Below the pieces are notes generated by a model. The model saw only the letters and a list, made by a program, of their open reading frames with translations, was not told the DNA's origin and did not search any database. Positions 26,638 through 31,511 of a stretch of 64,000 bases of DNA are shown here, in pieces; the first letter of the stretch is position 1, and every line of letters begins with the position of its first letter. The position numbers and the translations under genes were made by a program. The DNA is from an uncultured Oscillospiraceae bacterium (GTDB taxonomy: Bacteria > Bacillota > Clostridia > Oscillospirales > Oscillospiraceae), in contig CANQMW010000008.1 in assembly GCA_947625045.1 (NCBI GenBank), forward strand, positions 1 through 64,000, written 5' to 3'.

Positions 26638-27003
26638 TCAATACTTTTCCTTGCTCTTGAAGATCGTGGCCACCAAAATGCCGAAGAAGATGGCGGCGCA
26701 GATGCCGCCCGCCGCGGCGGTGAAGCCGCCGGTGAAGGCACCCAGGACGCCCCGCTGGGCCACCGCCTCCCGCACGCCCCGGGCCAGGAGATTGCCGAAC
26801 CCGGTCAGGGGCACCGTGGCGCCTGCCCCGGCCCACTTAGCCAGGGGCTCATAGAGCCCCACGGCTCCCAATATCACCCCGGCCACCACGTAGCCGGTGA
26901 GGATCCGGGCGGGGGTGAGCTTCGTAAGGTCGATGAGCAGCTGGCCAATGAGGCAGAACGCCCCGCCTACCAGAAACGCCCGCAAAAACTGCATCCAATC
27001 CAT
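26638..27003 (-). CDS. spoVAE: Stage V sporulation protein AE (SpoVAEb type)
   Basis: A 121-residue membrane protein with four hydrophobic segments and the conserved core GAGATVPLTGFGNLLARGV. SpoVA proteins form the channel that moves Ca-dipicolinate into the forespore and releases it at germination. ATG at 27003 has AGAGGTG six bases upstream; a start at 27018 lacks an RBS. It begins one base after the spoVAD stop. A spoVAC gene is not found next to this pair. Confidence 0.93.
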   Translation of the reverse strand: MDWMQFLRAFLVGGAFCLIGQLLIDLTKLTPARILTGYVVAGVILGAVGLYEPLAKWAGAGATVPLTGFGNLLARGVREAVAQRGVLGAFTGGFTAAAGGICAAIFFGILVATIFKSKEKY

Positions 27004-27004
27004 A

Positions 27005-28024
27005 CTAGCACCTCTCATTTTCCAGCGCCACCGCGTGGCAGATGGCGGGGATGCTCTCGCCCTGCTGGTTGGTGGTGGGACTCATCATGGCCCCGGTGGC
27101 GGCGAAGAGAAGCTTGTTCCAGTTGCCCTCCAGCATCCCGTGCAGGAGATGGCCGCACAGCACCGCTGCGGAGCACCCGCACCCGGAGCCGCCGGCGTGG
27201 GTGTCCTGGCCGTTGGCGGAGTAGATGAGCCGGCCGCAGTCCATATACCGCACGCCCAGGTCCACCCCGTCCCGGAGGAATAGGTCCGCCAGGATGTGGG
27301 AGCCCACGATGCCCAGATCCCCCGTGACGATGGCGTCGTAGTAGTCCGGCCCCCGGCCCGTGTCGGTGAAGTGGGCCTTCAGCGTCTCATAGGCCGCCGG
27401 GGCCATGGCCGCGCCCATGTTGTTCATGTCCGTCACCCCCGCGTCGGTGATGACGCCGGTGGTGATGTGGGTCACATAGGGGGCGGGGCCGTCGGCCTTC
27501 AATATCAGCGCGCCCGCGCCGGTGACGGTCCGCTGGGCGGTGGGGGGCCGCTGATTGCCGTACTGCAGGGGATAGCGGTACTGCCGCTCGGCGGAGCAGA
27601 AGTGGGAGCTGGTGGCCGCGGCGGCGGTGGAGCAGAAGCCCCCGTCGATCATCATGGCGGCGAGGCTGAGCCCCTCGGCCATGGTGGAGCAGGCGCCGTA
27701 GAGGCCGAAGTAGGGCACGCCGCACTCCCGCATGGCATAGGCGGAGCCCGCACACTGGTTCAAAAGGTCCCCGGAGAAGACGTATTCCACGTCGCTGGGG
27801 CTGGTCTTGGCCTTGTCGCAGGCGATGGACCAGCACATTTTCAGCATGGCGCTCTCCGCCTTCTCCCAGCTCTTGGCGCCGAAGCGGGAGTCGTCGCTGA
27901 GATAGTCAAAATACTTGCGGAGCGGACCCTCGCTCTCTTTCTTGCCGCCCACGCACGCCGCCGCGGCCACGCCGGGCTGCAGGGTCAGGTGGACGGTCTG
28001 TTTTCCCATTCGTTTCGTTTCCAT
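27005..28024 (-). CDS. spoVAD: Stage V sporulation protein AD
   Basis: A 339-residue thiolase-fold protein that binds dipicolinic acid on the spore inner membrane. GKQTVHL at the N-terminus, CSTMAEGLSLAAMMIDGGF, ATSSHFCSAERQYRYPL and GSGCGCSAAVL match the family, and length equals the B. subtilis protein. The start is ambiguous: ATG at 28024 gives normal length but no RBS, and ATG at 28009 has a weak GGAAACG. A terminator for ylmH lies just upstream, so the pair needs its own promoter. Confidence 0.93.
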   Translation of the reverse strand: METKRMGKQTVHLTLQPGVAAAACVGGKKESEGPLRKYFDYLSDDSRFGAKSWEKAESAMLKMCWSIACDKAKTSPSDVEYVFSGDLLNQCAGSAYAMRECGVPYFGLYGACSTMAEGLSLAAMMIDGGFCSTAAAATSSHFCSAERQYRYPLQYGNQRPPTAQRTVTGAGALILKADGPAPYVTHITTGVITDAGVTDMNNMGAAMAPAAYETLKAHFTDTGRGPDYYDAIVTGDLGIVGSHILADLFLRDGVDLGVRYMDCGRLIYSANGQDTHAGGSGCGCSAAVLCGHLLHGMLEGNWNKLLFAATGAMMSPTTNQQGESIPAICHAVALENERC

Positions 28025-28048
28025 GGTGCTATTGTGTGCGGCGCGGGC

Positions 28049-28088
28049 AAAAAAATACGCTGTGAAGAGCTCTTCACAGCGATTTTTT
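28049..28088 (-). terminator. Intrinsic terminator of ylmH
   Basis: A perfect 24-base palindrome, CGCTGTGAAGAG/CTCTTCACAGCG, at 28058-28081 is flanked by A7 on the left and T6 on the right. On the minus strand the T-run follows the ylmH stop. Confidence 0.88.
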
Positions 28089-28842
28089 ATAAGTATATCT
28101 CCGTCTCCAAAAACGTCCTGTCCTTTCTCGACTGGCCGCCCAGGGACACCACCGCGCCCTTGCCCCGGCCCCGGAGGGAGATCACGTCCCCCTCGTGGAT
28201 GGGCGCGTCCACATGCAGGCACGGGGCATAGTTCAGCGTGGCGGCCCCGGCCCGGATGAGCTCTGCCGCGGCGGTGCGGGAGATGCCGAACATGCCGCCC
28301 GCCACCGCGTCCAGGCGTAGGCTCTTCACCGTGAAGGTCATCTTCTTCACCTTCCGCTCCGGCACGGGCACGTCGGTAAGGGGGATAGGGGAGGTCTTGA
28401 GGCTCACCCGCCCGGCCTGGGTCAGCTCGTCCGTCAGGAGCCTTTCCACCGTGGGCAGGCAGAAGATATAGGCCGCGTCCTCCACCACCCGGAAGTCGCC
28501 TATCCACTCCCGGCGGATGCCGAGAGCCAAGGCCGCGCCCATATAGTCCCGATGGGTGGGGGTGCCGAAAAAAGCCGTCGCTTTCACCGTGTGGATGTGC
28601 TCGGATACGTCGAAATCCGCTTCCTCCATCCAGTAGGGGAGGAAGAAGGCGCACTTGCGCTCGCAGGCCCCGTCGCCGCCGTCCATGTGCAGCGTCACGT
28701 CGGAAAGACGCTTGGTCCAGGCGGAGACCTCCATCTGCTCGGCCATGGTGAGAAAACCGGTGGCCGTGACCACGCTCTGCCGCTCGCACCGGGCGGATAA
28801 CTCTTCTATTCGCTTTTCTAAATCTTTATCCATTGATACCAT
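28087..28842 (-). CDS. ylmH: S4-domain RNA-binding protein YlmH
   Basis: A 251-residue protein with a central FFGTPTHRDYMGAALALGI segment, an EWIGDF-type motif and a C-terminal S4 RNA-binding domain (SLRLDAVAGGMFGISR ... GDVISLRGRG). YlmH belongs to the Hsp15/RqcP-like S4 group and acts in ribosome-associated quality control in B. subtilis. The usual home is beside divIVA, unlike here. ATG at 28842 uses GGGGAGG from the left end of the palindromic element. The gene lies downstream of the GTPase-NYN fusion on the same strand. Confidence 0.9.
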   Translation of the reverse strand: MVSMDKDLEKRIEELSARCERQSVVTATGFLTMAEQMEVSAWTKRLSDVTLHMDGGDGACERKCAFFLPYWMEEADFDVSEHIHTVKATAFFGTPTHRDYMGAALALGIRREWIGDFRVVEDAAYIFCLPTVERLLTDELTQAGRVSLKTSPIPLTDVPVPERKVKKMTFTVKSLRLDAVAGGMFGISRTAAAELIRAGAATLNYAPCLHVDAPIHEGDVISLRGRGKGAVVSLGGQSRKDRTFLETEIYL

Positions 28843-28966
28843 TTAAGCCTCCCCTGTGCAAGGGGAGGGGGACCGCACGAAGTGCGGTGGAGGGGTTGTA
28901 AATAAACGACAATCCCTCAGTCAGCGCTTCGCGCTGCCAGCCCCCTTTGCACAAGGGGGCCTTAAA
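28842..28966. repeat. 125-bp nested palindromic element (MITE/REP-like)
   Basis: The outer ends TTTAAG and CTTAAA are inverted. Inside lie four hairpins in order: CCTCCCC/GGGGAGG, CCGCAC-GAA-GTGCGG, CAGCGC-TTC-GCGCTG and CCCCCTT ... AAGGGGG. GAGGGGTTGT pairs with ACAATCCCTC around the centre. The whole could fold as one long imperfect hairpin. It exactly fills the gap between ylmH and the GTPase-NYN gene, whose TAA stop is inside the right end. No ORF. Confidence 0.75.
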
Positions 28967-31511
28967 ACTGTGACCTTCTCACCGCGTCGGCGATCTGGTC
29001 CAGGACCCATTCCACCTCGGTCTTGAACTCCCCTGACGAGCAGCGCAGGACCCCGGAGCGGAGGGCGCCCACCTGCACCATCCGGTCGGAGGTGACTACC
29101 CGGACGGTCTCGTTCTTGCCGATCTCGTCCACCAGCCGCTCAATATACATGTCCGCTGTCTCGCCCTCCTTAGTATAGGCTACGCGGAGATTGCCGTGAC
29201 TCTCCCGGCTTCCCTGGCCGCCGGGGACCTTATAGGCGTCGAAGACCACGATGAGCTCGCTCTTGGTATAGCCCTGGTAGTTGGCCAGCATGTCCAGCAG
29301 CTTCGACCGGGCGATGTCCAGGCTCTCCGCGGCCAGGGCTTTCAGCTCGTCCCAGGCGAAGATGACGTTGTAGCCGTCCACGATGATATGCTCGTGGTCG
29401 CGCCGCGCCTGCATCTGGATGCCCACGGCGCTGTTGACCTGGGGGGCGGAGTACTGCTTCCGGCGGATGGGGCCGAACTCCCGGACCATGATGGCCTCCA
29501 GTTCCTTGTCGTCGATATTGAGGTTCTGCCGCCGCACGGTGGGCGCCGCCGCCTCCGGGGCGGCGGGGTCTTTGAGGCCGCTGTCCAGGTGCATGTACTC
29601 GGGCACCTTGTCCCACTTCACGTTGAATCCCGCCCCGTGGGCACAGAACACGCTGTCGGGAGTGTTCTCCACATCCGCCTCCGGGTCGTAGCCCATGGCC
29701 TCGATGACCGCAACCGCGTCGTGGCAGGGCCGGTACCCGGCCACGTGGCAGGTGAAGCGGCCCCGGCCGCCGGTGTAGGCGGCAACCTGCGCGGCGTAGT
29801 CGCCCATGGCGGACACGGGAGCCTCCCCGGTGAGCACCATCTGTTCCCCCTCGGGGACGGGGCTGTCATGGGTGCCGCCCATGGCCCGGATATCGGTGAT
29901 AGCCCGACCGATCTGCTCCGCGGGCACGGCCAGGCGAAAGGCGTACCAGGGCTCCAAAAGCACGCTCTCGGCCTGCATGAGCCCCTGGCGCACGGCGCGA
30001 TAGGTGGCCTGGCGGAAGTCCCCGCCCTCGGTGTGCTTCAGGTGCGCCCGCCCGGCCAGCAGCGTTATCTTCACGTCGGTCAGCGGCGAGCCGGTGAGCA
30101 CGCCCAGGTGCTGCTTTTCCTCCAAATGGGTCAATATGAGCCGCTGCCAGTTCCGGTCCAAGAGGTCCTCGGGGCAGACGGTGGCAAGCTCTATGCCGCT
30201 GCCGGGCGCGCCCGGCTCTAAGAGAAGATGGACCTCGGCGTAGTGGCGCAGGGGCTCGAAGTGGCCCACACCCTCCACGGTGCTCGCGATGGTCTCCCGG
30301 TAGAGGACCTGGCCCGCGTCGATGTCCACGTCCACGTCGAAGCGCTCTTTGATGAGGCTTTTCAGTATCTCGATCTGCACCGCGCCCATGAGCTGGACGT
30401 GTATCTCGCCCAGGCGCTCCTGCCACAGGATATGCAGCTGGGGCTCTTCTTCCTCCAGGAGCTTCAGTTTGGGTAGCATGGTCCTGGCGTCGCAGCCCTT
30501 GGGCAGGCGGATGCGGTAGCCCATGGCGGGGGTGAGCCAGGGCTCGTCCCCGTCCGGCTCCGCCCCCAGGCCCTGGCCGGGCCAGGTGCCGGAAAGGCCC
30601 GTGACGGCGCAGACCTGCCCGGCGGAAACGGCGTCGGCGGTGTCGTACTTGGCGCCGGAGTAGAGGCGTATCTGGCTCACCTTTTCCTCCACGGGCTCCG
30701 CCGCCCGCAGGGGCAGGTACCGGATGGGGGCACGGACCGACAGACTGCCGCCGGTGACTTTCAAATAGGTCAGGCGGTTTCCCTGGCTGTCCCGGCCTAT
30801 CTTATAGACCCGGGCCCCGAAGGGGGCGGGCCAGGCCGGCTCCGCCGTATACCGGTCCAGGGCGGCCAGGAATTCCTCCACGCCGTCCAGTTTGAGCCCT
30901 GAGCCGAAGAAGCAGGGGAACAGTTTCCGCTCTTTTATGAGCCGCACGATCTCCCCGTCGGGGAGGACGCCCGCCTCCATATAGCGGTCCAGGGCCGTCT
31001 CGTCCAGCATGGCCACCGCCTCGTCCCGGCCGGCGTTGTCGGGGGAGAAGTCCACGCAGGCCTCGCCCAGGCGGGCCTGGATATCTTTCATGAGGGCGGC
31101 CCTGTCCGTGCCGTTCACGTCCATCTTGGTGACGAAGAGGAATGCGGGGACCCGGTAGCGCTGCAAGAGCGCCCACAGGGTCTCCGTGTGGGCCTGGACG
31201 CCGTCAGTGCCGCTGATGACCATGACGGCGCAGTCCAGCACCTGCAAAACCCGCTCCGCCTCCGGGGAGAAGTCCACGTAGCCGGGGGTGTCCAGCAAGG
31301 TGATATCCGTATTTCCCGCGGTGAACAGGGCCTGCTTGGAGAAGATGGTGATGCCCCGGGCCCGCTCCAGGTCGTGGGTGTCGAGATATGTGTCCCGGTG
31401 GTCCACCCGGCCCAGCTTCTTGATCTTGCCGGCCAGATACAGCATGGCCTCGGACAGGGTGGTCTTGCCCGCGTCCACATGGGCCAGGATGCCGACGGTC
31501 AGTTTCTTCAT
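28962..31511 (-). CDS. TetM/EF-G-like translational GTPase fused to a Rae1/YacP-like NYN ribonuclease domain
   Basis: An 849-residue two-part protein. Residues 1-645 follow the TetM/EF-G layout: G1 AHVDAGKT (10-17), RGIT (52-55), DTPG (74-77), TKMD (128-131), then domains II-V. Residues about 708-845 match B. subtilis Rae1/YacP, with IIVDGYNVIFAW, VVFDAY, KEGETADMYIE and VVTSDR. Putative metal-binding Asp are 712, 758, 787 and 809. A Pro/Ala linker (about 646-705) joins them. The domain IV tip (488-499) lacks the TetM YSPVST drug-displacing loop, so tetracycline resistance is unlikely. Inferred role: GTP-driven delivery of an A-site mRNA endonuclease to ribosomes. ATG at 31511 with AAAGG upstream matches the TetM N-terminus. 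Confidence 0.9.
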   Translation of the reverse strand: MKKLTVGILAHVDAGKTTLSEAMLYLAGKIKKLGRVDHRDTYLDTHDLERARGITIFSKQALFTAGNTDITLLDTPGYVDFSPEAERVLQVLDCAVMVISGTDGVQAHTETLWALLQRYRVPAFLFVTKMDVNGTDRAALMKDIQARLGEACVDFSPDNAGRDEAVAMLDETALDRYMEAGVLPDGEIVRLIKERKLFPCFFGSGLKLDGVEEFLAALDRYTAEPAWPAPFGARVYKIGRDSQGNRLTYLKVTGGSLSVRAPIRYLPLRAAEPVEEKVSQIRLYSGAKYDTADAVSAGQVCAVTGLSGTWPGQGLGAEPDGDEPWLTPAMGYRIRLPKGCDARTMLPKLKLLEEEEPQLHILWQERLGEIHVQLMGAVQIEILKSLIKERFDVDVDIDAGQVLYRETIASTVEGVGHFEPLRHYAEVHLLLEPGAPGSGIELATVCPEDLLDRNWQRLILTHLEEKQHLGVLTGSPLTDVKITLLAGRAHLKHTEGGDFRQATYRAVRQGLMQAESVLLEPWYAFRLAVPAEQIGRAITDIRAMGGTHDSPVPEGEQMVLTGEAPVSAMGDYAAQVAAYTGGRGRFTCHVAGYRPCHDAVAVIEAMGYDPEADVENTPDSVFCAHGAGFNVKWDKVPEYMHLDSGLKDPAAPEAAAPTVRRQNLNIDDKELEAIMVREFGPIRRKQYSAPQVNSAVGIQMQARRDHEHIIVDGYNVIFAWDELKALAAESLDIARSKLLDMLANYQGYTKSELIVVFDAYKVPGGQGSRESHGNLRVAYTKEGETADMYIERLVDEIGKNETVRVVTSDRMVQVGALRSGVLRCSSGEFKTEVEWVLDQIADAVRRSQF

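Follow-up and report, generated by a model that had tools for sequence, protein, structure and literature searches.

What does a translational GTPase do in one chain with a nuclease of the Rae1 type? The question is raised by a gene on contig CANQMW010000008.1 of an uncultured Oscillospiraceae bacterium of the gut (GenBank assembly GCA_947625045.1), of which positions 1 to 64,000 of the forward strand (64,000 nucleotides) were analyzed and are referred to below as the window. The gene, a fusion of a translational GTPase with an NYN nuclease domain, is a single unbroken frame at 28962-31511 on the minus strand which encodes 849 amino acids followed by a stop; an alternative ATG further upstream would give a protein of 857 amino acids. 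On balance we favor the reading that the fusion protein is a Rae1-type ribosome-targeted mRNA endonuclease in which a dedicated EF-G/TetM-like GTPase in the same chain has assumed the task of targeting, and for which we infer ribosome binding, cleavage and the order of events. The domain architecture has been known since 2015; the proposal that it replaces Rae1 is new here. The features of the gene are as follows.

28962..31511, minus strand: whole fusion gene, 849 amino acids (reading frame and Pfam)
30846..31502, minus strand: G domain, residues 4-222 (Pfam GTP_EFTU)
31278..31280, minus strand: residue 78, Tyr (DTPGY) where the family has the presumed catalytic His (DTPGH) (alignments)
31119..31130, minus strand: G4 motif TKMD, residues 128-131 (alignment)
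29970..30314, minus strand: domain IV, residues 400-514 (Pfam EFG_IV)
30012..30044, minus strand: domain IV tip HLKHTEGGDFR, residues 490-500, where classical ribosomal protection proteins (RPPs) have YSPVST (alignments)
29712..29963, minus strand: domain V, residues 517-600 (Pfam EFG_C)
29577..29711, minus strand: family-specific C-terminal extension, residues 601-645 (row comparison and AlphaFold2 model)
29457..29519, minus strand: conserved helix motif in an otherwise disordered linker, residues 665-685 (alignments and predicted structure)
28974..29387, minus strand: NYN/YacP (Rae1-like) nuclease domain, residues 709-846 (Pfam NYN_YacP and Rae1 structure match)
29376..29378, minus strand: Asp712, invariant in 63/63 rows (alignment)
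29238..29240, minus strand: Asp758, invariant in 63/63 rows (alignment)

The original prediction for this locus had placed a GTPase and a Rae1-like nuclease in one frame, which the reading frame and the Pfam domains bear out; its interpretation as a whole is partly supported.

The nuclease half, the linker and the GTPase half

The nuclease half matches the Pfam family NYN_YacP (PF05991) over residues 709-846 with 149 bits against a cut-off of 24.6, and it matches the solved structures of Bacillus subtilis Rae1/YacP (5mq8/5mq9) with an E value of 9e-24. Conservation was followed in an alignment (A3) of 63 rows of fused homologues. The homologues were taken from the top 80 among 590 matches obtained with the full-length query, a choice biased to good, complete fused copies; of the 80 named loci, a script recovered 62 ATG-started frames and missed twelve, and the other six had no ATG. 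The NYN motif is present in all 62 ATG-started frames. Asp712, Asp758, Asp787, Glu791 and Asp809 are invariant in 63/63 fused homologues, and the same acids, which we take to include the catalytic ones, are found when the fusion is aligned to B. subtilis Rae1. The numbering of Asp712 and Asp758 in the original prediction is thus right, and the loss of catalytic Asp residues among orthologues, which that prediction had named as an outcome that would refute it, was not seen, as all 63 retain both.

The fusion shares with B. subtilis Rae1/YacP the Pfam family, the catalytic acids and the expected target, mRNA on ribosomes. Free Rae1 is a protein of about 170 amino acids (181 in the PDB chain), whereas the NYN domain of the fusion is tethered to the GTPase through a long linker. 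After the TSD motif, fused copies from the order of the window have a median of 48 residues (23 rows) compared to 68 in free Rae1 (28 rows); fused copies from other orders, with a median of 70 (13 rows), show no such shortening. According to two studies (PMC12320835, PMC6613710), Rae1 of B. subtilis attacks mRNA in the ribosomal A site.

The distance from residue 636 to Asp712 ranges from 73 to 157 residues with a median of 91 (63 rows). In the AlphaFold2 model, linker residues 650-666 and 683-704 have a predicted local distance difference test score (pLDDT) below 50, and between them lies a helix (668-679; block 671-680 with pLDDT 68). The helix carries the motif ELxxI[FM]xR[TE][YF]G, found as a strict pattern in 48/63 rows, and within the genus its conservation is 0.908 compared to 0.615 and 0.685 for the flanking linker. 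Going by alignment and model, we read the helix at 665-685 as a putative docking element. The idea that the motif (ELxxIFxRTYG) is a relocated form of the EIFEKWRRG helix at the C-terminus of certain free Rae1 proteins was taken as unsupported: in a profile scan the best match lay at the free Rae1 C-terminus in 4/29 sequences, which column-shuffled profiles equaled in 91/300 cases; by mean best score shuffled profiles did so in 16/300, a slight lean in favor of the idea.

In the GTPase half, the GTP_EFTU match over residues 4-222 reaches 155.7 bits (cut-off 26.5), and domains II and III stay below threshold in Pfam (19.2 and 24.4 bits, cut-off 27). Residues 1-635 of the AlphaFold2 model resemble EF-G and TetM, in a structure search hardly covering residues after 632, and the five-domain EF-G fold is present. 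The extension at 601-645 is common to fused and unfused members of the family and is missing from the rows of classical RPPs and EF-Gs used for comparison.

The original prediction further credited the GTPase with all G motifs, which fails for the window copy: G3 is DTPGY instead of DTPGH and G4 is TKMD instead of NKMD, so that the set of G motifs is incomplete and the switch-II His, which we take to be the catalytic residue of translational GTPases, is missing. Only the window copy showed the change at residue 78. The other A3 rows have DTPGH (62/62), as do 28/28 other rows examined from the genus, including the 96% identical sister L291; among the 34 other genomes of the genus, loci of 29 were used, one of which (L293) the script missed, and five genomes were left out. 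The non-Asn position of G4 is shared across the genus (25 T and 4 S among 29 rows). Tyr78 may be a recent genuine change or a sequence error. In the second EF-G paralogue of the same genome (L003, contig C31 of G000; EFG-II-like), encoded two genes after rlmB, switch II reads DTPGF.

Inheritance and distribution of the fusion

A tree of NYN domains was computed from 87 rows, consisting of 58 fused copies (54 distinct, four genomes being present twice) and 29 free ones. One branch parts the fused copies from free Rae1 (98/98; 100% of 200 bootstraps), and the nuclease half of the window protein did not take a place inside the clade of stand-alone Rae1. Distances in the GTPase half and in the NYN half correlate (r 0.65; 0/999 permutations as high). 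Within the genus (380-395 pairs), the GTPase has a median ratio of nonsynonymous to synonymous substitution (dN/dS) of 0.218, domain IV one of 0.109 and the NYN domain one of 0.235; the linker motif has 0.247, compared to 0.722 and 0.568 in the linker stretches flanking it. We conclude from these comparisons of sequence that the fusion goes back to a single event after which the two halves were inherited together, and that purifying selection acts on the GTPase and NYN halves alike.

In a sample of 398 genomes of the phylum, PF05991 was found in 208 (205 above the cut-off). The fusion is present in at least 23 of the 398, a lower bound since it was counted by GTPase match and frame length with up to three candidates scored per genome, and 23/23 of these genomes have exactly one PF05991 hit. 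Among the other 375 genomes, 185 have a PF05991 hit, three of them weak; the non-fused frames among the matches listed are 169-302 amino acids long and free-Rae1-like. Calculated by hand, 0/23 against a rate of about 0.49 has a chance of about 2e-7 if genomes were independent, which they are not. Both forms occur in one family (f83), with free rae1 in G350 and G388 and the fusion in G527.

In a sample of 295 genomes of the order, 101 have PF05991, and 95 of these carry it, together with the GTPase match, in a single frame of 833 or more amino acids. The remaining six are cut, split or fragmentary and none was shown to be free: G107 reaches a contig end, G275 is split, G215 is a fragment, and the coordinates of G150, G193 and G205 place them at contig ends, the GTPase front halves of G193 and G205 being located on other contigs. 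In this sample, no NYN_YacP domain was shown to exist apart from the GTPase. Of the genus, 35/35 genomes searched have the fusion, and in the genome of the window (95.22% complete) it is the single PF05991 hit. A possible remnant of rae1 beside rlmB was looked for by eye, and no NYN gene was seen among frames of at least 110 amino acids in the first 9.5 kb of the 11.5-kb rlmB stretch. The fusion seems to stand in for free rae1, because the 23 genomes found to carry it in the phylum sample have no second NYN_YacP gene; the absence of stand-alone rae1 beside the fusion, proposed earlier as a check, thus holds for the genome of the window and for the 23 fusion genomes of the phylum.

Mode of action and competing explanations

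Tet(M) and Tet(O), the nearest curated family, share with the fusion the EF-G-like five-domain GTPase fold; the fusion differs from them in its domain IV tip, in reaching about half the curated cut-off, in its separate clade and in the additional C-terminal extension, linker and nuclease. The best curated model (NCBIfam tet_protect) gives 383.8 bits, which falls short of the cut-off of 775. At the tip, K492, H493, T494 and G496-R500 are invariant in 63/63 A3 rows (KHTxGGDFR), whereas the classical Tet rows L177, L265 and L267 have YSPVST at the matching columns; a family member from Ligilactobacillus salivarius has HTVGGDFR at the tip and likewise lacks YSPVST. A tree of 87 GTPases obtained by a quick search puts the fused proteins in one clade with the unfused L175 nested inside (99 in the Shimodaira-Hasegawa-like approximate likelihood ratio test), an unfused group (97) adjoining it, and the family clade (99) apart from classical RPPs. 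A more careful tree of 46 rows gives 100/99 for the family and 100/99 for the fused clade, with weaker support (90/78) for the unfused sister group, and in neither tree is the window protein a member of the classical RPP clade. Judged by tip, curated score and tree, the fusion protein is other than a classical tetracycline-protection factor, and the earlier claim of a missing YSPVST loop is upheld. The claim that such proteins are mis-annotated held in part: the records of a fused Agathobacter rectalis plasmid copy and of the unfused copy on pMP118 of L. salivarius UCC118 are named TetM/TetW/TetO/TetS family protein, whereas a fused Monoglobus copy is named 'translation factor GTPase family protein'. 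Two further kinds of GTPase appeared beside the family. L260 (G657), a lone intermediate of 669 amino acids with the tip HTHGGDFR and a long branch, joins the family clade basally, between this clade and classical RPPs, and L261-L264 form a separate Tet-like group with the tip HTHPxDF, without YSPVST or the family extension in the rows shown.

The fusion architecture has been noted before. Atkinson 2015 (PMC4342817) describes a Tet-NYN architecture in ten Clostridiales and proposes RNase-based resistance; a clostridial Tet protein with a YacP-like NYN domain agrees with the window fusion in architecture and host group, and the ten proteins likely belong to the clade of the fusion. The paper offers a domain observation and a resistance hypothesis, unlike the replacement of Rae1 considered here. 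The proposal that the protein shields ribosomes from tetracycline or another A-site drug, with the RNase as part of the resistance, is in our view improbable: the curated score, the KHTxGGDFR tip and the separate clade described above argue against it, as do the two genomes (G013 and G435) that carry the fusion alongside a classical RPP and the occurrence of the fusion in every genome searched of the genus. We found no experimental study of the function of the fusion in the open-licence literature. Two papers bear on the tetracycline phenotype of L. salivarius: PMC12427466 reports that no resistance genes were found in its strain, and PMC12502609 reports intermediate tetracycline sensitivity, with resistance called intrinsic and with tet(M) and tet(L) hits that are not tied to the family gene.

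For an mRNA nuclease targeted by its own GTPase, the following course of events may be envisaged. On ribosomes whose A site is open, domains I-V would occupy the factor site, and domain IV would probe the decoding center, while the long linker with its conserved helix holds the NYN domain. Upon GTP hydrolysis and departure of domain IV, the NYN domain would cleave the message in the A site or close to it; alternatively, cleavage might take place while the ribosome is still held by domain IV, the nuclease then extending to the mRNA entrance. With the message destroyed, the ribosome could be rescued. Eukaryotic no-go decay by Hbs1/Ski7 likewise ties a translational GTPase to mRNA destruction on stalled ribosomes, with the difference that Hbs1/Ski7 are of the EF1 family and not, like the window fusion, of the EF-G family, and that a separate protein or complex serves as the nuclease. 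A wider reading, which we put forward tentatively and would not yet expect to hold in full, is that the fusion is a one-chain bacterial counterpart of no-go decay in which the GTPase senses the state of the ribosome and hands A-site mRNA to the Rae1 nuclease via GTP hydrolysis and the linker helix, which replaces free Rae1 in about one third of the sampled genomes of the order and in scattered other Clostridia, and which is partly hidden by a tetracycline-resistance label. If true, there would be a translation-coupled mRNA nuclease directly controlled by a translational GTPase, it would be explained how the carrier genomes manage without free Rae1, and some 'tetracycline resistance' proteins of commensals would be translation quality-control factors.

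Several observations weigh against a nuclease delivered by its GTPase. Domain IV and the Rae1 domain could hardly be together in one A site, and since both would want the same site, the two halves would have to act one after the other or at different places, the nuclease then working at the mRNA entrance. GTP hydrolysis may be impaired in the window copy, because Tyr replaces the catalytic switch-II His. Outside the A3 alignment two fused proteins deviate at the tip (L081 with KYTDGT and L271 with KHTEPPDF, both without YSPVST). No PF05991 hit was found in 194/295 genomes of the order, which therefore need Rae1 in neither form, and a conserved operon was not recognized, as the commonest neighbor family within three genes occurs in just 11/107 loci (118 loci surveyed, the gene being located by script in 107). 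The GTPase also occurs alone. It was detected in 112/295 genomes of the order (E 1e-150 or better, up to four candidates scored per genome), of which 98 have a PF05991 hit as well, and the other 14 have GTPase frames of 633-695 amino acids and no PF05991 hit. Six unfused copies of 651-674 amino acids were found in the phylum sample, four of them in genomes with a separate PF05991 hit (G626, G487, G512, G603) and two in genomes with none (G632, G681). Among 33 Ligilactobacillus records with a match in all, the 13 listed from L. salivarius match within residues 1-643 only. The L. salivarius members and viral contig L175 fall inside the fused clade, in a 13-row set supported at 98/94, and so seem to have lost the NYN domain after transfer. 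Judged by its distribution, the GTPase thus has a role of its own, with the nuclease as an added effector that is dispensable to it, and since it is also found without the nuclease, delivery of the nuclease cannot be its sole job. In one genome of the order (G106) two unfused copies were seen, and the copy on the L. salivarius UCC118 megaplasmid pMP118 (L283, 4986-6920, unfused) adjoins a copy of rpsN.

The strongest rival builds on this independence: the GTPase would be a general ribosome-rescue or ribosome-clearing factor, and the nuclease an occasional add-on acting afterwards, neither delivered nor timed by it. The 14 nuclease-free genomes of the order, the unfused members on L. salivarius megaplasmids and in the sister group, and domain IV as the most constrained part (conservation 0.932 for residues 401-515, the highest among the genus rows) speak for it. 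We nevertheless consider it unlikely, given that 98 of the 112 GTPase genomes of the order have PF05991, 95 of them in the same frame, that fusion genomes have no free rae1 and that the two halves diverge in step. A nuclease that processes or breaks down rRNA or tRNA as ribosomes are assembled, with the GTPase as a BipA-like assembly factor, seems very improbable to us. A role in rRNA and tRNA maturation has been proposed for NYN domains (cited in PMC4342817), and BipA, another translational GTPase, is linked to ribosome assembly (PMC8313970); against this, Rae1, the nearest characterized NYN relative, cuts A-site mRNA according to the studies cited above.

Neighboring genes and mobile elements

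Downstream of the fusion, at a distance of 119 bp, lies a gene of the S4 type.

28087..28842, minus strand: S4-type (YlmH-like) gene (TIGR03069 match below cut-off)

Its match to TIGR03069 scores 100.7 bits against a cut-off of 201.55. In the flanks examined, an S4-type neighbor is present at 24/30 loci from the same genus (window included) compared to 5/120 other fusion loci. The earlier statement that the fusion is followed by ylmH is therefore right as to an S4-type gene, but the TIGR03069 score stays below the cut-off and the linkage is lineage-specific, being confined to the genus and a small number of close relatives. After the S4-type gene come spoVAE and spoVAD (window 26638-28027), both above the curated cut-offs.

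A phage or plasmid origin was rejected and such occurrences were taken as incidental, full-length copies being few in the phage and plasmid collections (two records in each with at least 80% of the query). The fusion protein gave no family match at E 0.01 with the PADLOC anti-phage defence models. Twelve of 49 viral-contig loci were placed in a tree, which left out the short contig-end matches L209, L211, L213, L217 and L222; L175 and L199 are unfused family members and the rest are RPPs or EF-Gs. MT835563.1 (5421-7964) and MT835514.1 (15276-17777), unannotated 'Bacteriophage sp.' records from human faeces which are possibly host DNA, hold nearly full-length fused relatives with 56% and 49% identity.

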